13,988 bases of DNA, taken from Rhodospirillaceae bacterium (GTDB lineage: Bacteria; Pseudomonadota; Alphaproteobacteria; UBA828). The position numbers were made by a program, and so were the translations under genes. The notes under the pieces are model-generated. The model was not told the origin of the DNA and made no database searches. It saw only the letters and a list, made by a program, of their open reading frames with translations. Numbering within the stretch: position 1 is the first letter of the stretch; every line of letters begins with the position of its first letter. This document shows positions 2,508 to 13,838 of the stretch, piece after piece. Where the stretch lies: NCBI GenBank assembly GCA_028819955.1, contig JAPPKP010000161.1, forward strand, positions 1 to 13,988, written 5' to 3'.

Positions 2508-3401
2508 TCAGCGATTTCTCGCCCTCTGCTGTCGCGACTTGCCCGCTTCCGGTGTGGCCCGGGCGAGGCGTGCGTCCCGGTAGTAGCCGAGAGCGATGAT
2601 AAGCGACTGCGCCAGCACGATGGGCGCCGCGAGGGGCCGGAACCGGTGCACCTCCGCGTCCCGGACCTCGAAGTAGAGACTGGAGTTGCGGGCGAGCGGG
2701 CTCGTCATGGAATCGGTGATGGCGAGCACGGGAACCTTGCGAATGTGGGCGTCGGAAACCACGTCCACGACCTGCTGCGCGTATTCGGCGAAGCTGACGG
2801 CGATGAGCAGGTCGTCGAGAGCGATGGTCGCCACCTGCTGAGGCAGCATGCCGCCGACCGAATCGAGCAGGTGGCAGCGGTACTCGAGCCGGATCAGCCC
2901 GTACGACAGATAGGCGGCAACCGGGAAGGCGCGGCGCTGGCCGATGACGTAGATCGTCTTCGCCTCGTCCATCATGCGGACCGCCTGCCTGAGGGCGTCG
3001 CCCTCGATGTCCGCCTTCAAGTGCTGGAGGGCCAGGACGGACGCGTCGGCGAACCCGTTCAGGATGGCGGCCGGATCGTCCGCGGCGGCCTCCTCGAGCT
3101 GGCCGCGGTGCTCGTGAATGCCGTCCCGGAATGACGTTGCGCCCTCGATAAGACGCAGCCTGAAGACGCGCTGCATCTCGGAGAAGCCCGAAAAGCCGAA
3201 CTCTTTCGCGAAGCGAATGACGGTGGAAGGCTGAACGTCTGTCTCCCGCGCCGTTTCCGCCACCGTCTGCAGCGCGAAGCGGTTGGGATCGCCCAGGGCG
3301 AAATGGGCGATGCGCTGCAGGTGGGGGCTCAACCCCTCGTAGTGGTGCTGGAACGCCTCGCGAAGGCGGTCGAAGTCCTGGGGCGGTTCGGCGCTCGCCA
3401 T
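2508..3401 (-). CDS. RpiR/MurR-family transcriptional regulator with SIS domain
   Basis: This 297-residue protein has the standard RpiR layout and length. The N-terminal HTH_6 domain spans residues 15-90, with the recognition region at 53-77 (V-Q-P-S-T-V-I-R-F-A-K-E-F-G-F). The SIS sugar-phosphate/effector domain spans about 145-270 (V-I-G-Q-R-R-A at 152-158, A-I-T-D-S at 227-231). Family members usually repress sugar, inositol or amino-sugar catabolic genes and respond to a phosphorylated or otherwise anionic intermediate. I use the ATG at 3401 because GGAGG lies 5 nt upstream. A TTG at 3440 would add 13 residues without a comparable site. It is divergent from the dehydrogenase gene, and the space between holds three dyads that suit a dimeric regulator of this type. 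The likely role is local repressor of the downstream operon (inference). Confidence 0.9.
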   Translation of the reverse strand: MASAEPPQDFDRLREAFQHHYEGLSPHLQRIAHFALGDPNRFALQTVAETARETDVQPSTVIRFAKEFGFSGFSEMQRVFRLRLIEGATSFRDGIHEHRGQLEEAAADDPAAILNGFADASVLALQHLKADIEGDALRQAVRMMDEAKTIYVIGQRRAFPVAAYLSYGLIRLEYRCHLLDSVGGMLPQQVATIALDDLLIAVSFAEYAQQVVDVVSDAHIRKVPVLAITDSMTSPLARNSSLYFEVRDAEVHRFRPLAAPIVLAQSLIIALGYYRDARLARATPEAGKSRQQRARNR

Positions 3402-3406
3402 GGCTT

Positions 3407-3411
3407 CCTCC
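3407..3411 (-). promoter_or_regulatory. Ribosome binding site fixing the RpiR start
   Basis: GGAGG on the minus strand sits 5 nt before the ATG at 3401, supporting it over the upstream TTG (3440). Confidence 0.7.
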
Positions 3412-3459
3412 AGCGCGTGATCGTCGCCGCTGTCATGCAACGGCGGACATTCCCATGAT

Positions 3460-3475
3460 TTGAATGAGAATTCAA
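3460..3475. promoter_or_regulatory. Putative RpiR operator 1 (GAA-N6-TTC dyad)
   Basis: TTGAATGAGAATTCAA is a near-perfect dyad with TTGAAT and ATTCAA arms. It lies closest to the regulator gene, about 59 bp before its ATG, so it may serve autoregulation. It shares GAA-N6-TTC with the two dyads to its right. Confidence 0.6.
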
Positions 3476-3495
3476 TTAATCCCCCCTAACCGTGA

Positions 3496-3512
3496 ATTGA
3501 ACGAATATTCGC
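3496..3512. promoter_or_regulatory. Putative RpiR operator 2, just upstream of the -35 box
   Basis: ATTGAACGAATATTCGC contains GAA-CGAATA-TTC and ends 2 bp before the -35 hexamer of the operon promoter. Thirteen of its 17 bases are identical to operator 3, with the four differences confined to the central spacer. Confidence 0.65.
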
Positions 3513-3514
3513 TC

Positions 3515-3544
3515 TTGACACCGGCAGCGAACCGGCATTGTAAT
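3515..3544 (+). promoter_or_regulatory. Sigma-70-type promoter of the transporter operon
   Basis: A perfect -35 hexamer TTGACA (3515-3520) is followed after 18 bp by TGTAAT (3539-3544), five of six matches to the -10 consensus. Transcription would start near 3551, giving a leader of roughly 57 nt before the dehydrogenase ATG. The expected start point falls inside operator 3, the classical position for repression. Confidence 0.65.
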
Positions 3545-3559
3545 TGAACGTACGTTCGC
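3543..3559. promoter_or_regulatory. Putative RpiR operator 3, over the transcription start
   Basis: ATTGAACGTACGTTCGC contains the perfect 12-bp palindrome GAACGTACGTTC. Its centre is 47 bp from that of operator 2, and it overlaps the end of the -10 box and the predicted start point. A degenerate further half-site (TTGAACGATCA) begins at 3574. Confidence 0.65.
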
Positions 3560-3607
3560 GCACGCAGAAATTCTTGAACGATCATGCAGATCGCGAGGAA
3601 GGGCATC

Positions 3608-4555
3608 ATGACGGAGCGCGTGGGGTTTGCCGGCACCGGGCTGATGGGGCGCGGTATGGTGAAGAACATCCTCGCTGCCCGCTTCCCGCTCGCCGTCGTG
3701 GCCCACCGCAACAGGGCCACGGTCGAAGACTTGGTCGGCCTAGGGGCGACCGAACTCCCGAACTATCGCCGGCTGGCCGCCGAATCCGACATCGTGTTCA
3801 TCTGCGTGACGGGGACCCCCGAGGTCGAGAGCGTCGTTCACGGACCGGACGGCCTTCTGGCGGGCGCACACGAAGGCCTGATCGTGGTCGACTGCTCGAC
3901 CAGCGAACCCGCGTCCAGCGCGGGCATCGCAAGCGCGCTCGCCGAGCGGGGCGCGTCCTTCGTCGATGCGCCGCTGGCCCGCACGCCGGCAGAGGCCGAA
4001 ACGGGCCGTCTCAACACCATGGTGGGCGCGTCGCAGGCCGACTTCGCACGGGTCCGGCCGGTGCTGGCGGCGTGCTGCGAGAACATCTTCCACATGGGGC
4101 CGGCCGGGGCCGGCCACAAGACGAAGCTCGTCTACAACCTTATCACCATGGGGTATGCCGCGCTCATCTCCGAGGCGCTCTGCGCTTGCGCGGCCACCGG
4201 GGTCGATCTGAGGCGTTTCGCAGACCTCGTGTCGGCAGGCGGGGCCAACAGCGGGATCTTCCAGCTGATCGTGCCGAAAGCGATCGAGCAAGGCGACTGC
4301 TCGGGCCTCAACTTCAGCCTGGCGAACGCCGAGAAGGACCTGCGCTACTACAACCGCATGGTGGACGCTGTTCCGCTCTCCGGACTTCTCGGACGGGCAG
4401 TCCAGCACGCACTCATCCAGGGGCTCAACCTCGGCTACGCCGACGGTCTCGTCGGCGACCTGCTGCGCGTGCAGGAGACGCTCAACGGGGTCGAGATCCT
4501 GAAGCGGCAACCGTCGGAACCGGTGTCTGCCGCCGGCGAACCGGAAGCGGCATGA
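3608..4555 (+). CDS. NAD(P)-dependent beta-hydroxyacid dehydrogenase (3-hydroxyisobutyrate dehydrogenase superfamily)
   Basis: This 315-residue cytosolic oxidoreductase interconverts a short hydroxyacid and its semialdehyde. The Rossmann glycine motif G-F-A-G-T-G-L-M-G-R-G-M is at residues 6-17, and the all-helical C-terminal domain fills the second half. The catalytic lysine motif is G-A-G-H-K-T-K-L-V-Y-N (167-177), with K173 and N177 in place, although the usual Asn at 176 is Tyr. The substrate loop is unusual: most relatives have D-x-P-V-S-G-G, whereas here it reads D-A-P-L-A-R-T (120-126). An Arg at this point is also found in the sulfolactaldehyde reductase YihU (V-G-R-T), where it contacts the sulfonate. 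I use the ATG at 3608 because AGGA lies 8 nt upstream. The ATG at 3584 has no such site. It is the first gene of the operon, and the stop is 51 nt before the binding-protein gene. The exact substrate is not determined. Confidence 0.88.
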   Translation: MTERVGFAGTGLMGRGMVKNILAARFPLAVVAHRNRATVEDLVGLGATELPNYRRLAAESDIVFICVTGTPEVESVVHGPDGLLAGAHEGLIVVDCSTSEPASSAGIASALAERGASFVDAPLARTPAEAETGRLNTMVGASQADFARVRPVLAACCENIFHMGPAGAGHKTKLVYNLITMGYAALISEALCACAATGVDLRRFADLVSAGGANSGIFQLIVPKAIEQGDCSGLNFSLANAEKDLRYYNRMVDAVPLSGLLGRAVQHALIQGLNLGYADGLVGDLLRVQETLNGVEILKRQPSEPVSAAGEPEAA

Positions 4556-4606
4556 GCCGCGTACCTTCGAATTCAGGAGAGTGATGTCACGAGAGGGAGA
4601 ACCAAG

Positions 4607-5902
4607 ATGCCACGGATGAAGCTCACACGGCGGTCATTGCTCAAGGGAGCGGGCCTGCTCTCGGCGGGCACCGCAGTCACCTTCATGGGGCCCTGGCGCC
4701 ACAACCGCGTCTATGCCGCCGCCTCGGACAAGCCGATCCTGATCGGCCTCACCTCCGATGCGTCGGGGCAATACGCCAACTCCGGCGCCTCGGACCGGCG
4801 CGGCATGCTGATGGCTATTGTCGAATTCAACAAGAAGGGGGGCGTGCTCGGGCGCACGGTGGAGACCATGCACCTCGACACCGAGACGACGCCGGCGACC
4901 GGCAGCCGCGTGGCGGAACGCATGATCACCCGCCACGAATGCGCCTTCCTCATCGGCGCAGTCAGCTCCGGGGTCGCCAACGCCATCTCGCAGGTCGCCC
5001 AGAAGTACGGCACCGTGTACCTCAACACGAACTCGAGCTCGCCAACCGAGTCCGGCAAGAACTGCCATCGGGTCAAGTTCGTGTGGGACGGCAACGGCAC
5101 CAACTTCGCCCAGGCGGCGGTCAAGAACGCCATCAGCGCCTACGGCAGCAAGTGGATGCTGATGACCAACGACTATGTCTGGGGCCACAACACCTCGGCC
5201 GCCACCCGCAAGCTTGTGGAGCAGTACGGCGGCGACATCGTGGACGAGATCCTGGTGCCGCAAGGCACGCGCGACTTTAGCGCTATGCTGCTCAAGGTGC
5301 AGCAGGATGCGCCCCAAGTGGTCGCGGCGGCGGTCGGCGGCGACGACCAGAAGGCGATGCGCCAGCAGGTCGCCGAGCTCGGGCTCGGCGAGAGCATGGC
5401 CTGGATCAACAACCAGCAGGACTGGCCCGACGTCTACGGCCTGCCACTGAAGAACCTCTTCGGCGTGTTCGGCACCACCTGGTACTGGAAGCTCGACCTG
5501 CCGGGTGTGGCAGAGTTCGTGCAGCGCTACCAGGCGGCCTATCCGGATACGCGGATGCGGGTGCCAGGGAACGTCTTTTACAACGGCTACATGGCCACGC
5601 GTGAGCTGCTGAGCGCGGTAGAACGCGCGGGCTCCACCAACAACCGCAAGGTGATCCAGGAGCTGGAGGGGCTGAAGGTCTCGGCCCAGGACCGCATGCA
5701 GCATCACGACGCCTGGATGAACCCTGCGACGCATCAGATGCAGCAGACGATCTATCTCGCGACCGCCAACAGCGGCACCGAGGACGCCGACGACATGTTC
5801 AGGATGCTGAGTCAGTCCAGCCCCGAGGAAATCCGGGACACCGGGGCGGACGCGGCCTGTATGATGGAGTCGCTGGACGAGACGCCGAGCTACGAGATGT
5901 AG
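4607..5902 (+). CDS. Tat-exported periplasmic substrate-binding protein of a LIV-type ABC transporter
   Basis: This 431-residue protein belongs to the Peripla_BP_6/LivK group. The leader has a twin-arginine motif (L-T-R-R-S-L-L-K-G, residues 6-14), a hydrophobic segment (15-28) and a probable V-Y-A cleavage near 35-37, so it is likely exported folded. The mature domain starts with P-I-L-I-G-L-T-S-D-A-S-G-Q-Y (43-56), the usual first strand and ligand loop, and continues with N-T-N-S-S-S-P (about 142-148) in the ligand-binding region. Ligands of this family include branched-chain amino acids, amides, urea, aromatic acids and other small carboxylates. The sequence does not say which applies here. 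A GGGAG-like site precedes the ATG, and a second in-frame ATG is at 4616. It delivers substrate to the permeases encoded downstream. A large hairpin after its stop codon may keep its mRNA more abundant than that of the membrane genes. Confidence 0.9.
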   Translation: MPRMKLTRRSLLKGAGLLSAGTAVTFMGPWRHNRVYAAASDKPILIGLTSDASGQYANSGASDRRGMLMAIVEFNKKGGVLGRTVETMHLDTETTPATGSRVAERMITRHECAFLIGAVSSGVANAISQVAQKYGTVYLNTNSSSPTESGKNCHRVKFVWDGNGTNFAQAAVKNAISAYGSKWMLMTNDYVWGHNTSAATRKLVEQYGGDIVDEILVPQGTRDFSAMLLKVQQDAPQVVAAAVGGDDQKAMRQQVAELGLGESMAWINNQQDWPDVYGLPLKNLFGVFGTTWYWKLDLPGVAEFVQRYQAAYPDTRMRVPGNVFYNGYMATRELLSAVERAGSTNNRKVIQELEGLKVSAQDRMQHHDAWMNPATHQMQQTIYLATANSGTEDADDMFRMLSQSSPEEIRDTGADAACMMESLDETPSYEM

Positions 5903-5916
5903 GGCCTTCCTTGTAC

Positions 5917-5952
5917 TGCCGCCGGCTTCCGGGCGGTCGGGGGCCGGCGGCA
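5917..5952 (+). promoter_or_regulatory. Long hairpin between the binding-protein and permease genes
   Basis: TGCCGCCGGC (5917-5926) pairs perfectly with GCCGGCGGCA (5943-5952). The intervening bases can extend the stem by two G-U and three further Watson-Crick pairs, leaving a six-base loop. No T-run follows. It starts 14 nt after the stop codon, which suits an mRNA-stabilising or partial-attenuation element inside the operon better than a full terminator. Confidence 0.65.
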
Positions 5953-6036
5953 CCTTGCTCAGGCAGGCGGACCGCAGGGCTCGTCTGCGTGCCACATGCG
6001 TTGGTTTAGTGCCGACATGCCCCGGACGGTCGCCCC

Positions 6037-6957
6037 ATGTCGCACCTCCTCCCCCATCTTCTGAACGGGCTGAGCCTCGGCCTCCTGTTCGCGCTGATCG
6101 CACTGGGCTTCATGCTCATCGTGAGCGTGATGGAGGTGATCAACCTTTCGCACGGCTCGCTCTTCGCGCTGGGCGCCTACTTCGCGCTGGTGGTCATCGA
6201 CCCGGACTTCGCCTGGCTCGGCTCGTTCGGCGAGGCGTACCGGGCGCTGCCGCTCCCGGCGCGCTACGGGCTGGCGTTCCTCATCGCTCCGGCGCTCGTC
6301 GCGGTCGTGGGCATGGGACTCGAAGTCTGCATGCGCCGGACCTACGGCAAGAAGGCGGAATATGGCCTGCTGCTCACCTTCGGCGCGGCCCTCGTCATCG
6401 AAGAGACCATCCGTGTCCTCTGGGGCCCGTCGGAGCAATACCTGCAGGTGCCGCGGGACATTTCCGGGGCATTTCTCTTCGGCGGGTTGATCTATTCCAA
6501 GTACAAGCTCTACGCGGCGCTCTTCGCGGCCATCGCCATCGGCTGCGTCTGGCTGTTCCTGGAACGCACGCCCTACGGCGCCATCATCAAGGCTGGCGCG
6601 CACGACAGCGAGATGGTGCGCGCGCTCGGCATCAACCTCACCCGGCTGCGCCTGCTAGTTTTCGGCCTGGGCGCCGGTCTCGCTGGCTTCGCGGGTATCG
6701 TGCTCACGCCGATCTGGGGCCTGAGGCCGCATGTGGGCATCGACGCCGTGATTCCCGCCTTCCTGATCATCGTGCTCGGCGGCATCGGCAGCTTCTGGGG
6801 CGCCGTGATGGGCGGCATCCTGGTGGGGCTCGCGGTGGGGATTACCGGCGCCTACGCCTCGGATTGGTCGCTGCTCTCCATGTACCTGCTGCTCATCGCG
6901 GTGGTGACGGTCCGGGCACGCGGTCTCTTCGGCAAGAAGAGCGTGCTGGAGGCGTGA
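6037..6957 (+). CDS. livH: LivH-type ABC transporter permease
   Basis: This 306-residue inner-membrane protein has about eight hydrophobic segments. It carries the family landmarks I-N-L-S-H-G-S-L-F-A-L-G-A-Y (35-48), a central cytoplasmic loop G-A-H-D-S-E-M-V-R-A-L-G-I-N (187-200) that contacts the ATPases, and G-G-I-G-S-F-W-G-A-V-M-G-G (248-260). It forms one half of the transmembrane channel with the LivM-type protein. Only a weak GGACGG site precedes the ATG, and no other start exists upstream in this frame. The preceding 134-bp gap contains the hairpin and no gene. The livH symbol denotes the family, not proven leucine transport. Confidence 0.92.
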   Translation: MSHLLPHLLNGLSLGLLFALIALGFMLIVSVMEVINLSHGSLFALGAYFALVVIDPDFAWLGSFGEAYRALPLPARYGLAFLIAPALVAVVGMGLEVCMRRTYGKKAEYGLLLTFGAALVIEETIRVLWGPSEQYLQVPRDISGAFLFGGLIYSKYKLYAALFAAIAIGCVWLFLERTPYGAIIKAGAHDSEMVRALGINLTRLRLLVFGLGAGLAGFAGIVLTPIWGLRPHVGIDAVIPAFLIIVLGGIGSFWGAVMGGILVGLAVGITGAYASDWSLLSMYLLLIAVVTVRARGLFGKKSVLEA

Positions 6958-6960
6958 GCG

Positions 6961-7989
6961 GTGGCCGGGTGGCAGTCGGTTGCAGGCCGCTGGGTCTCCC
7001 GCGAGATGGCGCTGCTGTTCGTCCTCATGGCGACGCTGCCGCTCTGGATCGGGCCGGTCGGCCTTTACCAGTATCTCGGCATCGAGATCGCGATCTGGAT
7101 GATCTACGGGTTGGGCTACAACCTGCTGCTCGGCTATTCGGGTCTGCCGAGCTTCGGCCACGGCGCCTTCTTCGGCATCGGCGCCTACGCCTTCGGCCTC
7201 TTCCAGCTTCGCGCCTTCGAGAGCCTCTGGCTCGGCATGGTTTGCGCCATCGTCGCGGCGGCCGTCGCGGGCGCCTTCGTCGCCTGCTTCCTGTCGCATC
7301 GACGCGGCATCTACTTCGCGCTGCTCACCATCGCCTTCGGCCAGGTGTTCTGGTTCGTCGCCATCAAGTGGCACGCCGTCACCGGCGGCGAGGACGGGCT
7401 GCTGAACATCCCGCGTCCGGCACTGGAATTCGGCGTTGTCTCGCCGGCGCTGGACGCGAACGGCGACTTCTTCTACTTCGTCCTGGCCGTGCTTGCCGTC
7501 GTGACCGTGCTGCTGTGGCGGCTGGTCCATTCGCCGTTCGGCAAGGTGCTGCAGGCGATCCGGCAGAACGAAGAGCGGGCGCGCTTCGTCGGCTACAACG
7601 TCTGGCTCTTCAAGTGGGCGGCGTTCACGCTGTCAGCCGCCATCGCGGGGCTCGCCGGCTCTCTCTTCTCCATGGCCCAGCAGAGCGCGTACCCCGACGT
7701 GATGAGCCTGCATGCGTCCGGCATCATCGTGATGATGACGCTCATCGGCGGCGGCTTCGTGAGCTTCTGGGGGCCGGTGATCGGCGTCGCGGTCTATTTC
7801 GTGGCGCGCGACGTGCTCGGCACGCTCACCGAGACCTGGCTGCTCTGGTTCGGGCTGGCGTTCGTGCTGGCGGTGATCTTCAAGCCCGAGGGCATCGCTG
7901 GCGCTTGGCAGGAGTTGACCGGCGCGGAAGGACGGCACGCGCTCGCACGGCGGGCGATGGTGGGACTGATATCCGCGGGGCGGAAGTGA
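6961..7989 (+). CDS. livM: LivM-type ABC transporter permease
   Basis: This is a 342-residue multi-span membrane protein. The diagnostic LivM text L-G-Y-S-G-L-P-S-F-G-H-G-A-F-F-G-I-G-A-Y lies at about residues 58-77. The cytoplasmic coupling region Q-A-I-R-Q-N-E-E-R-A-R-F-V-G (about 198-211) and the C-terminal F-K-P-E-G-I-A-G element (about 304-311) are both present. The start is GTG at 6961, 3 nt after the livH stop, with GGAGG 8 nt upstream (6948-6952). An ATG 15 codons later is the alternative. The gene is in tight succession with the livH- and livG-type genes, so the three products are made together. Confidence 0.92.
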   Translation: MAGWQSVAGRWVSREMALLFVLMATLPLWIGPVGLYQYLGIEIAIWMIYGLGYNLLLGYSGLPSFGHGAFFGIGAYAFGLFQLRAFESLWLGMVCAIVAAAVAGAFVACFLSHRRGIYFALLTIAFGQVFWFVAIKWHAVTGGEDGLLNIPRPALEFGVVSPALDANGDFFYFVLAVLAVVTVLLWRLVHSPFGKVLQAIRQNEERARFVGYNVWLFKWAAFTLSAAIAGLAGSLFSMAQQSAYPDVMSLHASGIIVMMTLIGGGFVSFWGPVIGVAVYFVARDVLGTLTETWLLWFGLAFVLAVIFKPEGIAGAWQELTGAEGRHALARRAMVGLISAGRK

Positions 7990-7992
7990 GCC

Positions 7993-8736
7993 ATGGCGTT
8001 GTTCGAGGCCCGGGGCATCCACAAGCGCTTCGGCCGCCAGGTCGTGCTGGAGCATATCGACCTCAACTTCGAGGCCGGCCGGCTCAGCGGGATCATGGGG
8101 CCGAACGGTGCGGGCAAGACCACCTGCTTCAACGTGCTCACGGGCCGCTACAGGCCCGACCGCGGCCGCGTCCTGCTCGACGGCGAGGACATCACCGGGC
8201 TCGCCCCCAACGCCATCGCGCGCAAGGGCATCGCGCGCTCGTTCCAGATCATGAGCCTCTTCGACGAGTACCCGGCGCTGGAGAACATCGTGATCGCACT
8301 GCCGGACGTCCGCGCACGCGGCTTCAACATGATCGACAGCCTGTCCGCGGACAGCGAGGCGGCGGACCGTGCCGCCGCCGTGCTGGCACGGGTTGGCCTG
8401 GTGGGCCGCGAGCACCGCCGCGCCGGCGACCTCGCCTACGGCGAGCGGCGCGCGCTGGAGATCGGCGTGGCGTTGGCGGCGGAGCCGCGCCTCCTCTTCC
8501 TCGACGAGCCTACGTCCGGGCTCGGTATCGAGGCGACCGCACGCCTCGCAGACCTCGTGCAGGACCTGAAGCGCGACCACTCGATCGTGGTGATCGAGCA
8601 CGACATGCAGTTCCTCTTCGGCCTCGCCGACACCATCTCGGTCATCCACTGGGGGCAGGTGGTCGCCGGCGGGACCCCCGACGCGCTGCGCGAGAACAAG
8701 TGGGTGCAGCGCTCGATTCTGGGGGCACCGTCATGA
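7993..8736 (+). CDS. livG: LivG-type ABC transporter ATP-binding protein
   Basis: This 247-residue ATPase has all motifs: Walker A G-P-N-G-A-G-K-T (36-43), Q-loop F-Q (84-85), the LivG-style signature L-A-Y-G-E (148-152, replacing LSGGQ), Walker B L-L-F-L-D-E (167-172), and the switch histidine in I-E-H-D (H203). It would pair with the LivF-type protein to power import. It starts 3 nt after the livM stop codon and ends in an ATGA overlap with the livF start. The length is normal for the family. Confidence 0.93.
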   Translation: MALFEARGIHKRFGRQVVLEHIDLNFEAGRLSGIMGPNGAGKTTCFNVLTGRYRPDRGRVLLDGEDITGLAPNAIARKGIARSFQIMSLFDEYPALENIVIALPDVRARGFNMIDSLSADSEAADRAAAVLARVGLVGREHRRAGDLAYGERRALEIGVALAAEPRLLFLDEPTSGLGIEATARLADLVQDLKRDHSIVVIEHDMQFLFGLADTISVIHWGQVVAGGTPDALRENKWVQRSILGAPS

Positions 8737-9431
8737 TCCTCGACGTCGCCGACATCGAGACCTTCTACGGTGAGACGCAGGCCCTCTTCGGCGTCTCGCT
8801 CGCAGTGGGCGAAGGCGAGGTGGTGGCGCTGCTGGGGCCGAGCGGCGCCGGCAAGACCACGATGCTCCGCTCGATCCTGGGGCTCACGCCGGCGCGCCAC
8901 GGCGCCATCAGCTTCGACGGACGCGACATCACGCGCAGGCCGACGCACGAGATCGCCCGGCTCGGAATCGGCTGGGTGCCGGACGATCGCCGCATCTTTC
9001 CGACGCTTACCGTGGCGCGGAACCTCTCCATCGCCCGCAAGCGCACCCGCTTCCGCGCCTGGTCGCTGGGCGAGATGTTTGAGATCTTCTCCGCGCTGGA
9101 GCACCTGATGGCGCGCGAGTGCGAGAACCTGTCCGGCGGGGAGATGCAGATGGTGGCGATCAGCCGAGCCCTGCTCGGCGCGCCTGGACTGGTGTTGTTC
9201 GACGAGCCGTCTCAGGGTCTCGCGCCCAAGGTGGTGCAGGACGTGATGGCGACGGTCTCGCGTCTCAAGGACGCGGGCCTCGCCGCTCTGGTGGTCGAGC
9301 AGAACGCCGCTACCGCGCTCGGCGTCAGCGACCGCGCCTATGTCATGGACCGGGGTCGCATCGTGCACGAAGGGCCCGCGGGCGACCTGCTCGCCGACGA
9401 CGACCTGCGGACGAGCCTGCTGGGGGTATGA
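8733..9431 (+). CDS. livF: LivF-type ABC transporter ATP-binding protein
   Basis: This 232-residue ATPase has Walker A G-P-S-G-A-G-K-T (35-42), signature L-S-G-G-E (133-137), Walker B V-L-F-D-E-P (154-159), and V-E-Q-N (188-191), the LivF-typical form in which the switch histidine is replaced by Gln. ATGA overlaps link it both to the upstream livG-type gene (8733-8736) and to the next ATPase gene (9428-9431), evidence of strict co-translation. Together with the LivG-type subunit it completes a canonical importer, which makes the extra ATPase gene that follows unexpected. Confidence 0.93.
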   Translation: MILDVADIETFYGETQALFGVSLAVGEGEVVALLGPSGAGKTTMLRSILGLTPARHGAISFDGRDITRRPTHEIARLGIGWVPDDRRIFPTLTVARNLSIARKRTRFRAWSLGEMFEIFSALEHLMARECENLSGGEMQMVAISRALLGAPGLVLFDEPSQGLAPKVVQDVMATVSRLKDAGLAALVVEQNAATALGVSDRAYVMDRGRIVHEGPAGDLLADDDLRTSLLGV

Positions 9432-10060
9432 GCGTGACGGTGCCGATCCTCGAAGCGCGCGGCCTAGTCAAGTGCTACGCGCGCGGCCTGATCCGGCGGC
9501 ACGAGACCTTCCGCTTGGAAGCGGACCTGACCGTGGCAGATTCGACCATCGTCGGCGTCATGGGGCCCAACGGGTCGGGCAAGACCACGCTGTTCGAACT
9601 GATCACCGGCTCGAACATGCCGAGCGCGGGCTCGGTCCACGTCATGGGCAGGAACATCCACAACGTGAAGTACGGCGAGCGTGACCGCCTTGCGATCCAC
9701 TACCACCAGTCCTACCAAGTGCGTCACTTCCGCCGTATCCGACCCTCGTTCCTGATGCAGCCGGCCGGCCACGACTACCCGATGGTGCATCTCTTCGACG
9801 AGCCGCAGTTCAACACCCAGGACGGCTACATCGGCTTCATGCTGGACTTCTTTCGCAAGCTCAGGCGGGAGGGCAGGCTCGTCTTCGTCTGTCTCCACCC
9901 GAACGAGCCCTATCATCTGGAGCTGATGGAGGAGGTCTGCGAGCGTTTCGTCTTCGTCCTCGCCGGGCGCATACGCGAATATCCAGATTTCCGCTCCTTG
10001 CTCGGTGAGCCCGATGTCCGCTCCTATCTGGGTGGCCTGGTGCCGCCGGACATGGCGTGA
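9428..10060 (+). CDS. Atypical short ABC ATPase, third nucleotide-binding protein of the transporter operon
   Basis: This is a 210-residue ABC-fold protein. Walker A is intact (G-P-N-G-S-G-K-T, 46-53). Walker B is recognisable (M-V-H-L-F-D-E-P, 119-126) and a switch-like histidine follows (V-C-L-H-P, H157). No LSGGQ/LSYGQ-like signature is present. Only about 65 residues separate the two Walker motifs, against roughly 110 in the adjacent subunits, so most of the helical subdomain that carries the signature and contacts permeases is missing. The frame is continuous and the codon use normal, so this is not an obvious frameshift. The ATG overlaps the livF stop as ATGA, and 67 nt separate it from the ThDP enzyme gene. 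It might be a regulatory or accessory nucleotide-binding subunit. Its role is unknown. Confidence 0.8.
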   Translation: MSVTVPILEARGLVKCYARGLIRRHETFRLEADLTVADSTIVGVMGPNGSGKTTLFELITGSNMPSAGSVHVMGRNIHNVKYGERDRLAIHYHQSYQVRHFRRIRPSFLMQPAGHDYPMVHLFDEPQFNTQDGYIGFMLDFFRKLRREGRLVFVCLHPNEPYHLELMEEVCERFVFVLAGRIREYPDFRSLLGEPDVRSYLGGLVPPDMA

Positions 10061-10127
10061 GCGCGACGGAACGGCAACGCCCTCGCCCGGGCTCGACCTG
10101 CAATAGCGACAAAAGGAACGTTGGCCG

Positions 10128-11822
10128 ATGGTGAAGCGCTCGGGAGGGGAAGTCCTGGCGGAGATGCTGCAGGGCTACGGCGTCACGCATGTCTTCATGG
10201 TGCCGTCGATCCTGCGGCGGGCCCTGGTCGAGATGGAGCGGCGCACCACCATCCAGCGCATCCAGGTGCATGCCGAGAAGTCCGCTGCCTACATGGCCGA
10301 CGGCTACGCGCGGGCCTGCGGCCGGCCCGGCATATGCATGGCCCAGGTGGTCGGCGCGCTCAACCTCGCCGCCGGCCTGCGCGACGCCTGGCTCGCCAAT
10401 GCGCCGGTGATAGCCATGACCGGCGGGCGCGACCCGCACACCAAGTTCCGCAAGGCCTATCAGGATCTGGACGACGTGCCGGCCTTCGAGCCGGTGACGA
10501 AGTTCAACGCGACCGTGGACGAGGTGACGCGCATTCCCGACCTGGTGCGCCAGGCGTTCCGGGTCGCCGTCTCGGGCAAGCCCGGCCCGGTGCACCTGCA
10601 GTTCCGGGGCAACGAGGGGCAGATCGACTACGAGGAAGCGGAGATGGAGCCCCTTGCCGAAGAAGTGTTCGCGCGGGTGCCGCCGTTCAGGCCCACGCCT
10701 GCGCCCGAGCACGCGCAGGCGGCGCTCGATGCGATTCAAGCGGCCGAGCGGCCGGTATTCGTCGCCGGCGGCGGCGTGCGCGCATCCGGTGCAGGCGTGG
10801 CGCTGGTGGCGCTTGCCGAGCGCCTCGCCGTCCCGGTCGCCACCTCGCTCCACGGCAAGGACACCATTTCCGGCGATCACCCGCTCTCCGTGGGAGTCGT
10901 CGGGACCTACTCGCGTGAGAGCGCCAACCGGGTCGTGGGGAAGGCCGACCTGGTCTGCTTCGTCGGCTCCGAGACCGGCGGCATGACCACGCATTTCTGG
11001 CAGGTGCCGCCCATCGGCACGCCCGCGGTGCAGATCGACATCGAGCCCCAGTCGCTCGGCCGCAACTACCCGCTCAAGGCAGCGGTCTGCGCCGATGCGA
11101 AGATGGCGCTCGACTGGATGCTGGAGCATGCCGATCCCCGATCGGCGGAGGGCCGCACGGACTGGACCGCCCGCGCGCGCGGGATGGTCGCGGAGTGGCG
11201 GGGTCGCTATCGCTCCCTCCTGGAATCCGACGCCGTGCCGATCCGGCCCGAGCGCGTCTGCCACGAGCTCTCGCGGCATCTGCCGGAGGACGCTATCGTC
11301 ATGGCCGACACCGGGCATTCAGGCATGTGGATGGGCGGGATGTACGACCTGCGCGCGCCCGCGCAGAGCTACATCCGAAGCGCCGGCCACCTCGGCTGGG
11401 CTTTCCCCGCCGGCCTTGGCGCCAAGTGCGCCGCGCCGGAGCGCCCCGTCTTCGTCTTCACCGGCGACGCGGGCTTCTGGTACCACCTCACCGAGATCGA
11501 GACCGCCGTGCGCTGCGGCATCAACACCGTCACTCTGGTGAACAACAACAGCTCGGGCAATCAGGGGTCGCCCGGCTTCGACCGCGCCTACGGTGGGCAG
11601 CAGTCGGAGCAGGGGCGCGAGCTCTGGACCTACAACGACGTCAACTTCGCCGCCATCGCCGAGGCTATGGGGGCGCTGGGTCTCCGCGTCGAGAACCCCA
11701 CCGACATCCCCAGCGCGCTCGAGACGGCCTTCGCCGCCGGCCGGCCGGCGGTGATCGACGTGGTCAGCGACATCGAGGCCCAGGCGCCGCTCGCCGTGAT
11801 TGCGGGGCCGTTGGACGGCTAA
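10128..11822 (+). CDS. Thiamine-diphosphate-dependent enzyme of the acetolactate synthase superfamily
   Basis: This 564-residue protein has the three-domain ThDP layout: Pyr domain (about 5-165), central domain (about 185-320, V-F-V-A-G-G-G-V at 209-216) and PP domain (about 370-550). The cofactor-activating glutamate is E50 in V-H-A-E-K-S-A, twelve residues before the Arg of A-D-G-Y-A-R, as in acetolactate synthase. The Mg/ThDP motif starts G-D-A-G-F (446-450) and ends N-N-N about 27 residues on. Such enzymes decarboxylate 2-oxoacids or join or cleave C-C bonds. The substrate cannot be assigned: it lacks the Val-for-Glu change of glyoxylate carboligase and the N-terminal text of sulfoacetaldehyde acetyltransferase. 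No small regulatory subunit gene is nearby. A plausible partner is the operon's dehydrogenase, handling the aldehyde made or used here (inference). Confidence 0.88.
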   Translation: MVKRSGGEVLAEMLQGYGVTHVFMVPSILRRALVEMERRTTIQRIQVHAEKSAAYMADGYARACGRPGICMAQVVGALNLAAGLRDAWLANAPVIAMTGGRDPHTKFRKAYQDLDDVPAFEPVTKFNATVDEVTRIPDLVRQAFRVAVSGKPGPVHLQFRGNEGQIDYEEAEMEPLAEEVFARVPPFRPTPAPEHAQAALDAIQAAERPVFVAGGGVRASGAGVALVALAERLAVPVATSLHGKDTISGDHPLSVGVVGTYSRESANRVVGKADLVCFVGSETGGMTTHFWQVPPIGTPAVQIDIEPQSLGRNYPLKAAVCADAKMALDWMLEHADPRSAEGRTDWTARARGMVAEWRGRYRSLLESDAVPIRPERVCHELSRHLPEDAIVMADTGHSGMWMGGMYDLRAPAQSYIRSAGHLGWAFPAGLGAKCAAPERPVFVFTGDAGFWYHLTEIETAVRCGINTVTLVNNNSSGNQGSPGFDRAYGGQQSEQGRELWTYNDVNFAAIAEAMGALGLRVENPTDIPSALETAFAAGRPAVIDVVSDIEAQAPLAVIAGPLDG

Positions 11823-11978
11823 CCCGCTGGTGGTCCCGGCCTTACACCAACACTGACCAGCATTCGACAGTAGCGAGCACCTATTCGCCGACGCCCTGCG
11901 CAACGCCCATATGCCGGCTGCCATGCCCGTCTATGTCGAGTGTAACTGACGGAAAGACGTGTCCCACGCGAGATTCCG

Positions 11979-12002
11979 CGAGATATAGAGAGACATATCT
12001 CG
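11979..12002. repeat. AT-rich hairpin upstream of the TPR gene
   Basis: CGAGATAT (11979-11986) and ATATCTCG (11995-12002) form a perfect 8-bp inverted repeat with an 8-nt loop, just outside repeat copy B. It is 157 bp after the ThDP gene, in a 200-bp gap with otherwise no gene. It could be an operator or part of the repeat. There is no T-run for a terminator. Confidence 0.45.
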
Positions 12003-12009
12003 GCGTTTG

Positions 12010-12107
12010 CCCGATATAGTGGTCATTGCGACCCGAATTCAGGGTGTGTACAGCCTACGTTCCCGCTCCGCCCTGCCGGGGGGAGGACAGGGGGAAGTGG
12101 GTGCGCG
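12010..12107 (+). repeat. Dispersed repeat, copy B (inverted relative to copy A)
   Basis: The plus strand 12010-12052 matches the minus strand 1870-1828 at 34 of 43 positions. It is followed by a C-rich to G-rich block (CCCTGCC then GGGGGGAGGACAGGG, 12071-12092) and TGGGTG, in the same order as copy A. It ends at the likely start of the TPR-like gene, so it may supply that gene's leader. Confidence 0.7.
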
Positions 12108-12109
12108 CG

Positions 12110-12850
12110 ATGCGGGCTGAGTCTCCGAAAGGCGGTGGAGGGATTCTGGGCGCCGAACAGCGCTGGGAAGCGCGGGTCCGCGACGGCCTCGCGGCGTTCC
12201 AAGCGGGACGCGTGGACAAGGCCTACGCCGCATGGCGCTCCGCCGCCGCGATTGCCAGAGCCTTCGACGCAGACGACCCACGCCGCGCGGCGAGCCGCAC
12301 GCACCTCGCCCTCTGCCATGCCGCCACCGGCAACGATGCAGGGGCGCGGCGAGCCTTTCGCCGGGCGCTGCGGGCCTGGGCAGCGTCGGACGCTTGGATC
12401 GCGCGCATGGCGCTGCCGCAGCGCGCGCGCAGCTCGGGCTTTCATCTGCGGCTGGAGCAAAAGAACCCGGGCGGATACGACGCCGTTGCACGCGCGGGCT
12501 ATGCGCGACTATTGGGAGCGGGGCGGGCTGCGGCGCTCGCCGGCGGCGCGTATCTCGCGCGCGATCCGGCGGCCGTGCTGGAGCAAGCGCAAGCCCTGCG
12601 GTCGGACGGGCTCGGCCGCCGCGACTTGGATCAGGCGCCGATCTGCCGTGCGCTTGCGGAACTCGCAGAGGCCGAGGGAGATGACACGGCAGCGTTGGAA
12701 GCGCGGCGGCGAGTCGAGGAAATCGAGCGCGACCCGGTGCGCTTCGGTCCGGAGCGCCTGGGTTCGCTCGCGGAGGACCAGGTGCCCAGCGACCTCAGGC
12801 GTCTCGAGGCGGCGGTCTATCTGACTCCGGTGGTTCTTCGTCGTCGCTGA
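12110..12850 (+). CDS. TPR-like protein of unknown function
   Basis: This 246-residue Ala/Arg-rich protein is almost wholly helical. Residues about 15-100 show tetratricopeptide-style spacing of small and aromatic residues (D-G-L-A-A-F-Q-A-G-R-V-D-K-A-Y-A-A-W, then T-H-L-A-L-C-H-A-A-T-G-N-D-A-G-A-R-R-A-F-R-R-A-L). A similar pattern occurs again near A-E-L-A-E-A-E-G-D-D-T-A-A-L-E. There is no signal peptide or catalytic motif, so a protein-binding role is the most one can propose. The start is uncertain: ATG at 12110, or GTG at 12101 with GGGGA 5 nt upstream. A TTG at 12026 is open too, but it would put repeat sequence into the protein. The 3' end overlaps the convergent livM-like gene by 56 bp. 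Confidence 0.65.
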   Translation: MRAESPKGGGGILGAEQRWEARVRDGLAAFQAGRVDKAYAAWRSAAAIARAFDADDPRRAASRTHLALCHAATGNDAGARRAFRRALRAWAASDAWIARMALPQRARSSGFHLRLEQKNPGGYDAVARAGYARLLGAGRAAALAGGAYLARDPAAVLEQAQALRSDGLGRRDLDQAPICRALAELAEAEGDDTAALEARRRVEEIERDPVRFGPERLGSLAEDQVPSDLRRLEAAVYLTPVVLRRR

Positions 12851-13838
12851 CCTGCGGCCGGCGTCCGTGCCGCGCCCATTCCCACCACTCCCTGGCCCGC
12901 CTCGGCAGGCTCTCGAGCCCATCGGGCAGGAACATCACGGTGAGAATCAGGATGGCGCCGTAGAACAGCGGGCGCCACTCATCGAGCCCACGCAATCCCT
13001 GGTCGACGACCGTCAACACGATAACGCCTACGATGGGTCCGGCGATGGTCCGTGTGCCGCCGACGATCACCCACACCAGCACGAAGAGCATGATGTGCAG
13101 GTTGAACTGCACCGGGTTGACGGTGCCGAGATAGTGGCCGAGCAGCGCGCCGGCGAGCCCGGCGAAGCCAGACGCCACCACCAGGGCGAAGGTCTTGTAC
13201 CACCAGATGTGCACGCCGACCGATTCCGCCAGCACGTCCTTCCAGTGGATCGCGTGCAGCGTGAGCCCGAAGCGCGAGTGCTCCAGCCGGTAGAAGATGA
13301 AGATCGTGATGACCACCAGCGCAAGGCACAGGAAGTAATAGGCGACGGGGTCCGCCGCGACGTCGAACAGGCCGAGGGCGGGGAGAGCGATTTCCGGCGA
13401 GGGAATGAACACCAGCCCTCCGGGCCCGCCGAAGGGGTCGCGGAAGCGGTTCCAGGTTAGGCGAATTGCCTCGCCTGCCGCGAACGAGCCGATCAGGAAG
13501 TAAAAACCCTTCATGCGGAAAAGCGGGAAGGCAAGCAGAAATGCGAGAAAGCCGGTGAACGCCATGGCCAACGGTGCGGCAAGCCAGACCGAGAGCCCGG
13601 CCTCCTTGGTGGCGAGCGCGCTGCCGTAGGCGCCCACGCCCATCATCACAACATGGCCGAGCGAGAACTCGCCCGCGAGCGTGAGGAAGCGGTAGCTCAC
13701 CGCCAGGATCACGTTGATCAGCAGGAAGATGAGGATGTCGATCCGGTAGATCGCAACCACGAAAGGCAGCACGCAGAAGACCGCCAGCACGGCCGTCAGC
13801 CCGCCGCCCGTCAGCAGGAGTCGGCTAGACCTTCTCAC
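12795..13838 (-). CDS. livM: Second LivM-type ABC transporter permease
   Basis: This 347-residue multi-span inner-membrane protein has LivM landmarks: L-A-G-E-F-S-L-G-H-V-V-M-M-G-V-G-A-Y (about 54-71), the coupling loop L-H-A-I-H-W-K-D-V-L-A-E-S-V-G (about 194-208), V-G-G-T-R-T-I-A-G-P-I-V-G (about 260-272) and F-L-P-D-G-L-E (305-311). A charged, Pro-rich tail (D-D-E-E-P-P-E-S-D-R-P-P-P-R-D) ends the protein. The start is GTG at 13838, overlapping the end of the upstream livH-like gene by 14 bp, with no strong ribosome site of its own. It belongs to a LIV cassette distinct from that at 6037-9431. Its 3' end overlaps the convergent TPR-like gene. Confidence 0.9.
   Translation of the reverse strand: MRRSSRLLLTGGGLTAVLAVFCVLPFVVAIYRIDILIFLLINVILAVSYRFLTLAGEFSLGHVVMMGVGAYGSALATKEAGLSVWLAAPLAMAFTGFLAFLLAFPLFRMKGFYFLIGSFAAGEAIRLTWNRFRDPFGGPGGLVFIPSPEIALPALGLFDVAADPVAYYFLCLALVVITIFIFYRLEHSRFGLTLHAIHWKDVLAESVGVHIWWYKTFALVVASGFAGLAGALLGHYLGTVNPVQFNLHIMLFVLVWVIVGGTRTIAGPIVGVIVLTVVDQGLRGLDEWRPLFYGAILILTVMFLPDGLESLPRRAREWWEWARHGRRPQVSDDEEPPESDRPPPRDA

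Follow-up and report, generated by a model that had tools for sequence, protein, structure and literature searches.

ATP-binding cassette (ABC) ATPases are defined by a signature motif that closes the ATP site of the partner subunit. In LIV/HAAT importers, represented by E. coli LivFGHMK, and in the urea importer UrtABCDE, two such ATPases are combined with a binding protein and two permeases. A thiamine diphosphate (ThDP)-dependent enzyme and a beta-hydroxyacid dehydrogenase share one block in the glyoxylate carboligase (Gcl)/GlxR system of E. coli (gcl, glxR). For the myo-inositol module of Caulobacter, PMC2597717 reports a GGAA-N6-TTCC motif together with the RpiR-family regulator IolR, and a transporter of the module's own, IbpA-IatA-IatP (binding protein, ATPase, permease), which is unlike the one presented here. 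The locus compared with these systems lies in a window of 13,988 nucleotides (the whole stretch of DNA analysed, contig JAPPKP010000161.1 of a Rhodospirillaceae bacterium). Positions 3608–11822 carry eight adjacent plus-strand genes, in the order given below, with an RpiR/SIS gene divergent on the minus strand. One of the eight products, named ABCx here, is a third ABC-like protein without the helical/signature segment. The unit conserved across genomes is the importer with ABCx, usually with RpiR, and not the pair of ThDP enzyme and HIBADH-type dehydrogenase.

2508–3401 (start at 3401, or TTG at 3440), minus: RpiR/MurR-type regulator (Pfam HTH_6 2e-10, SIS 1.3e-15)
3608–4555 (ATG also at 3584), plus: beta-hydroxyacid (HIBADH/6PGDH-like) dehydrogenase, PLARTP subfamily (NAD_binding_2 2.6e-37, NAD_binding_11 1.8e-13)
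4607–5902 (start at 4607 or 4616), plus: periplasmic binding protein (Peripla_BP_6, 4e-70)
6037–6957, plus: LivH-type permease (BPD_transp_2 4.9e-33)
6961–7989 (GTG at 6961, or a later start at 7006), plus: LivM-type permease (BPD_transp_2 3.2e-41)
7993–8736, plus: LivG-type ATPase (ABC_tran 2.4e-29; signature-like LAYGE at residue 147)
8733–9431, plus: LivF-type ATPase (ABC_tran 1.5e-30; signature LSGGE at residue 133)
9428–10060, plus: ABCx, without helical/signature segment (ABC_tran matched only at positions 4–56 of 137)
10128–11822, plus: ThDP-dependent enzyme (Pfam TPP_enzyme N, M and C; Glu50 kept, GGRDP at residues 99–103)

ABCx and its association with the importer

ABCx was aligned in 97 rows, comprising the window, 84 of the 120 listed relatives and 12 loci. 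Walker A, DEP (Walker B with its Glu) and the HP motif are retained in all 97 rows, while no signature-like motif was found in any of them or in the best 120 of 5646 relatives. Walker A and DEP lie 70 residues apart in 97 of 97 rows and in 120 of those best 120 relatives, compared with 114 in the LivF and 127 in the LivG of the window. The relatives were chosen by similarity to ABCx, and badly decayed copies could therefore escape these counts. The alignment has 61 invariant columns, among them the Walker A Gly/Lys/Thr, YHQ.YQ, HLFDEPQF, DGY and C.HP, and the AlphaFold2 model of ABCx reached a pLDDT (predicted local distance difference test) of 90.3. Compared with canonical ABC ATPases (LptB, MetN, CbiO), ABCx shares the core fold, Walker A, the Walker B Glu and the His, but the helical subdomain and the LSGGQ signature of a motor ATPase are absent.

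The alignment excludes two apparent fusions (P0048, P0058), the N-extended P0041 and some further relatives, all of which are included in the spacing count of 120 relatives; P0048 has two Walker A motifs, the second of which gives the spacing of 70. In P0048 (289 aa), the N-terminal part of a LivG is joined to the C-terminal part of an ABCx, and in P0058, a LivF-like start is joined to ABCx. Both may have arisen by recombination of adjacent ABC genes, or may be artefacts of assembly. On plasmids, one record at 60–80% identity to ABCx was counted, and the 20 listed matches had only 22.7–30.5%.

ABCx lies directly 3' of LivF in 28 of the 28 distinct genomes with a match, with a gap of −4 to +26 bp where measured. 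Carriers amounted to 9 of 385 genomes in the class of a locus titled Methylobacterium oxalidis, 4 of 300 in the order of one titled Aquabacterium humicola and 6 of 36 in a further order, that of genome G382; other samples gave 1/1, 5/15, 1/15 and 5/18, and 5/398 at phylum level. These samples overlap, and in the largest scans the scoring for ABCx was limited to 7–10 first-look candidates in each genome, so that misses are possible. A contig scan with the ABCx alignment, based on two short patterns of which one was Walker A, kept 80 loci; L001 (62%) was the only clear relative, and L002–L080 were not read. In the order of G382, the binding protein was present in 7 of 36 genomes, six of them being the ABCx carriers and the seventh the source of locus L196 (G711:C64:88000-105500).

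L196 retains the HIBADH gene, a cupin-like gene, the binding protein, LivH and LivM, followed by only the first 34 residues of LivG. No LivF or ABCx occurs in that stretch, a DDE transposase gene is present, and the locus is apparently a broken copy of the cassette. A Cupin_2 protein of 140 aa is encoded directly upstream of the binding protein in L097 (15210–15632) and L169 (15253–15675). Cupin_2-like proteins also occur in L094, L099, L171, L172 and L196, with no match in the window.

By itself, ABCx has no signature with which to complete the ATP site of an ABC pair, and a role in regulating or stabilising LivG/LivF is therefore more likely than one as a third motor. It may found a distinct class of ABC importer, in which a dedicated third nucleotide-binding subunit gates LivG/LivF through an incomplete ATP site; we consider this a serious possibility, with a chance a little short of even. 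Such a subunit could, for example, couple uptake of a carbohydrate-like solute to the energy or regulator state of the cell. The protein is conserved, keeps its ATP-binding residues and accompanies a single type of importer across several bacterial orders, which makes the role of an incomplete ABC site directly testable. Literature searches on a signature-less LIV subunit returned nothing relevant, which does not exclude literature outside those searches. In the literature searched, the importer-linked ABCx family could not be matched to any described system, whereas each enzyme, like the importer, is a variant of an already known kind.

Operon, regulator and neighbouring genes

LivG and LivF overlap by 4 bp, as do LivF and ABCx, and 3 bp separate LivH from LivM and LivM from LivG, which agrees with the translational coupling proposed in an earlier reading of this DNA made without database searches (the sequence-only reading). 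That reading described seven plus-strand genes; the run itself is correct, but the count is eight, because the third ABC-like gene sits between livF and the ThDP gene. The signature-less protein, the most unusual part of the block, goes unmentioned there. Wider gaps occur between the dehydrogenase and binding-protein genes (51 bp), between the latter and livH (134 bp) and between ABCx and the ThDP gene (67 bp). With a top Pfam E-value of at most 1.6e-11 for every gene in the block, chance cannot account for the gene content. The single promoter assumed earlier received no backing from a sigma-70 consensus scan (0 promoters, shuffle mean 1.0), which is weak evidence in either direction, and an Rfam scan gave no matches. 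A terminator-like site at 5986–6000, inside the 134 bp gap, may be due to chance, since 7 such sites were found in 3400–12100 against 2.9 expected.

The binding protein, the two BPD_transp_2 permeases and the two ABC ATPases in one operon constitute a LIV/HAAT architecture. The best NCBIfam similarities are to Liv and Urt subunits, all under the equivalog cut-offs (LivF 185 of 441, UrtA 106 of 493, UrtB 161 of 250 and UrtD 204 of 304 bits). The window importer differs from LivFGHMK and UrtABCDE in these scores, in the addition of ABCx and the RpiR regulator, and in the carbohydrate-type genes around its relatives. The binding protein starts with what we take, from its sequence, to be a twin-arginine-like leader, and RR occurs near the N-terminus in 10 of 16 binding-protein sequences as called, whose start sites are uncertain.

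The divergent gene encodes both HTH_6 and SIS domains, and the presence of an uptake and catabolic unit beside an RpiR regulator, as first proposed, was supported. Neighbours were surveyed by tblastn at 1e-15 in 27 relative loci read at length, with the query for each neighbour taken from one of them. A regulator 35–64% identical to that of the window was found in 21 of the 27; of the six without it, four end at a contig edge. Three palindromes lie between the regulator and the dehydrogenase gene.

3462–3473: operator-like palindrome GAATGAGAATTC (GAA-N6-TTC)
3499–3510: operator-like palindrome GAACGAATATTC (GAA-N6-TTC)
3546–3557: operator-like palindrome GAACGTACGTTC (GAA-N6-TTC)

In shuffled versions of the region 3441–3607, the mean was 0.126 copies, and none of 2000 shuffles reached three. 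Across 22 RpiR intergenic regions, including that of the window, 51 copies were found in 21 regions, compared with a mean of 3.3 and a maximum of 10 in 300 shuffles, and the other spacings from N3 to N12 gave 0–13 copies. The density was 7.20 per kb within these regions and 0.21 outside, where the DNA is largely coding. Since the palindromes keep a constant place, the local RpiR probably binds the three in the window, which are thus predicted sites. The Caulobacter module shares with the window an RpiR-family SIS regulator and the operator core GAA-N6-TTC, and some relatives of the cassette adjoin iolC-type genes. It differs in that the window, searched at 1e-15, has no IolC or KduI/IolB-type match (IolG, IolE and IolD were not searched separately), so that this part of a myo-inositol catabolic module is missing from the locus.

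Among the neighbours in the 27 loci, the HIBADH subfamily was found in 7, IolC in 5, Gfo/Idh in 7, IlvD in 4, aldehyde dehydrogenase (ALDH) in 8, an HpaI-like protein in 4 and an SDR2-type dehydrogenase (at least 49% identity) in 15. IolC (L001, L095) and an L-arabinonate dehydratase (L094) exceed their NCBIfam cut-offs, while the aldolase and ALDH tested from relative loci remained below theirs. L169, L170 and the damaged L196 share with the window the position of the dehydrogenase, which lies in each of them between the RpiR gene and the transporter genes.

The dehydrogenase and the ThDP enzyme

In its loop, the dehydrogenase has DAPLARTP in place of the DAPVSGG of E. coli GlxR and YgbJ, which bears out the changed substrate loop noted previously. 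PLARTPxEA is present in 7 of 7 aligned dehydrogenases, window included, with DCP instead of DAP in two. Since the window and all six aligned cassette-linked relatives keep DxPLARTPxEAxxGRLNTMVG, the altered loop is a subfamily trait. None of the 10 matched NCBIfam cut-offs was passed; the top model was tartronate semialdehyde reductase (152 bits, cut-off 340.75), and the L-threonate dehydrogenase model gave 112 of 350 bits. Membership of either family was rejected on these scores and on the loop, and the enzyme lies outside the curated tartronate semialdehyde reductase, consistent with the distinction from that route made in the sequence-only reading.

Glu50 of the ThDP enzyme aligns with a Val of E. 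coli Gcl and with Glu of IlvI, IlvB, PoxB and Oxc, and alignments with solved structures agree, so the catalytic Glu is indeed retained as had been read. The enzyme stayed below every cut-off among the 25 of 52 NCBIfam models listed, which include neither sulfopyruvate decarboxylase nor IolD; an IolD-like role may also be considered. The highest listed score was that of an acetolactate synthase subfamily (335.6 of 673 bits), TIGR00118 gave 308.8 of 538.35, and the Gcl models gave 257 of 791 and 209 of 711. Assignment as an acetolactate synthase was not sustained by these values, and glyoxylate carboligase was rejected on both its scores and Glu50; sulfoacetaldehyde acetyltransferase (Xsc), with 226.6 of 620 and 222.6 of 676.4 bits, was likewise discarded. 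The Gcl/GlxR block therefore has the same two kinds of protein, but with Val for Glu50 and DAPVSGG for DAPLARTP, and both window proteins are far below the curated cut-offs. The nearest solved sequences were about tied at 205–207 bits. BbmA (PDB 8x3x, 206 bits) matches over nearly the full length and has Glu in the same column, but no function was assigned from it because it is only marginally ahead of a Gcl (205 bits), and a literature search did not reveal the role of BbmA. The phylogeny of the enzyme, which had been suggested earlier, placed it within its own subfamily only (a 22-row fork), the five E. coli references being set apart from it by very long branches. The structure model was poor (pLDDT 60.3, 19 rows), and the best plasmid match listed had 47.1% identity.

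The ThDP gene adjoins ABCx in 0 of 28 genomes, the flanks examined being about 1.5 kb long on either side for 24 genomes and longer for 27 loci, and a window-type ThDP enzyme was found in 0 of the 27 relative loci (tblastn 1e-15). The closest kin in the protein database reach 97% identity for ABCx, 91% for the dehydrogenase and 94% for the ThDP enzyme. Comparison of 75 of 120 ABCx, 106 of 120 dehydrogenase and 63 of 120 ThDP rows gave 14 presumed shared contigs for dehydrogenase and ABCx, 5 for dehydrogenase and ThDP enzyme, 2 for ABCx and ThDP enzyme and 1 for all three, sharing being judged indirectly by an identical size of the longest contig. Contigs with the ThDP gene and either HIBADH or ABCx are thus confined to close metagenomic kin, which makes the ThDP gene an addition in part of the clade of the window.

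Among 20 loci with ThDP relatives (49–73% identical), found in genome scans that scored only 3–4 first-look candidates per genome and may have missed others, a HIBADH-like gene (24–32% identity) occurs in three (L149, L153, L154) and a LIV-type set (29–35%) in two that are similar to each other (L155, L156). Other transport genes are DctM of the TRAP (tripartite ATP-independent periplasmic) type in L143, L145 and L147 and TctC of the TTT (tripartite tricarboxylate transporter) type in L150 and L151; these are five of the six neighbour genes tested, the sixth, in L155, being another type of solute-binding protein. These loci argue for a recurrent but loose pairing of ThDP enzymes of this kind with beta-hydroxyacid dehydrogenases, as supposed in the sequence-only reading, and not for a conserved block. 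As a conserved unit of this importer type, the pair was rejected, the dehydrogenase being present in 7 of 27 loci. The co-location on which the sequence-only reading relied thus holds among close kin and loosely among ThDP homologues, but fails for the cassette in other genomes.

Proposed function, alternatives and flanking genes

The function we propose, with confidence evenly balanced, is inducible, RpiR-controlled import of a polyol, a sugar acid or a cyclitol, with ABCx as an accessory signature-less ATPase, the HIBADH-type enzyme oxidising and the ThDP enzyme decarboxylating or cleaving. Judged by the neighbours, the regulator type and the operator core, the solute would be polyhydroxylated and not an amino acid. 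An RpiR-type repressor with IolR-like operators would control the divergent operon, and the hydroxylated compound or its metabolite would free it from the three predicted sites. The binding protein would hand the solute to LivHM, with LivGF powering transport and ABCx binding ATP and modulating the LivG/LivF motor. The PLARTP-type dehydrogenase would oxidise the imported acid at one of its hydroxyls, giving a 2-oxo acid that the ThDP enzyme would next decarboxylate or cleave at the C–C bond beside the new carbonyl, both enzymes having presumably been added in part of the clade. The operator and neighbour evidence suggests that importers resembling branched-chain amino acid transporters may carry sugar-like compounds.

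Several observations weigh against this proposal. In place of RpiR, L094 has a GntR/FCD regulator and L099 a LacI; the window operators are without the G and C that flank the core in the IolR motif; and the spacing N2 (GAA-N2-TTC) is over-represented too, with 27 copies in 16 of the 22 regions that perhaps lie within the N6 palindromes. The window gave no match to the SDR (short-chain dehydrogenase/reductase), IolC, IlvD, HpaI or ALDH queries, and the neighbour enzymes need not share one substrate, since they differ between loci. Four loci (L001, L103–L105) have the cassette in two parts that face away from each other, with RpiR-IolC-HIBADH-binding protein-LivH in one direction and LivM-LivG-LivF-ABCx in the other, and an amidase adjoins ABCx in L100. 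The PDB sequences nearest the binding protein carry labels of branched-chain amino acid, urea or amidase-regulator proteins, and we know of no ligand for any of these binding proteins. The catalytic direction, oxidation before decarboxylation, and the role of ABCx are what we infer.

Of the alternatives, the one that survives best, though unlikely, is the reverse order, in which import of a 2-oxo acid is followed by its decarboxylation by the ThDP enzyme and reduction of the aldehyde by the HIBADH-type enzyme, as in the first option of the sequence-only reading, or two units are ligated and then reduced as in the Gcl/tartronate semialdehyde route. Tartronate semialdehyde reductase is the top model of the dehydrogenase, a solved Gcl matches the ThDP enzyme about as well as anything, and HIBADH-like genes stand near 3 of 20 ThDP relatives. 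Against this order, Glu50 replaces the Val of Gcl, and the dehydrogenase subfamily accompanies the cassette without a ThDP gene in 7 of 27 loci, four of them beside IolC.

It is rather unlikely that the ThDP gene was acquired downstream as a unit of its own, outside the same pathway. The 67 bp gap, its absence beside ABCx in all 28 genomes and the TRAP (DctM) or TTT (TctC) genes adjoining several 65–73% relatives would fit, but it lies on the same strand as ABCx with no gene in between, its close kin presumably share contigs with HIBADH (5), ABCx (2) or all three (1), and HIBADH-like genes and LIV-like sets recur near its relatives (3 and 2 of 20).

A literal importer of branched-chain or other amino acids, or of amides or urea, with the enzymes as bystanders or acting on the carbon skeleton, is distinctly improbable. 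While the LIV architecture, the Urt and Liv similarities below cut-off, the PDB labels and the amidase in one locus are in its favour, 21 of 27 loci have an RpiR/SIS regulator and carbohydrate-type neighbours recur among the relatives, which speaks against it. That ABCx is a decaying duplicate ATPase without function is hardly credible, since, despite its lack of the segment that a motor ATPase needs, the spacing of 70 (120/120 of the best 120 of 5646 relatives), the 61 invariant columns over 97 rows and the place after LivF in 28 of 28 genomes are constant.

Outside the block, the window also contains the following genes.

1–327, minus: start of an RPE65-family gene
324–806, minus: DUF2141 protein
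907–1716, plus: LytTR-domain protein

At 12795–13838 on the minus strand, a second LivM-type permease (BPD_transp_2 2.2e-39) is convergent with, and slightly overlaps, an open reading frame at 12098–12850 with weak TPR matches, and it is perhaps the edge of another LIV-type operon.

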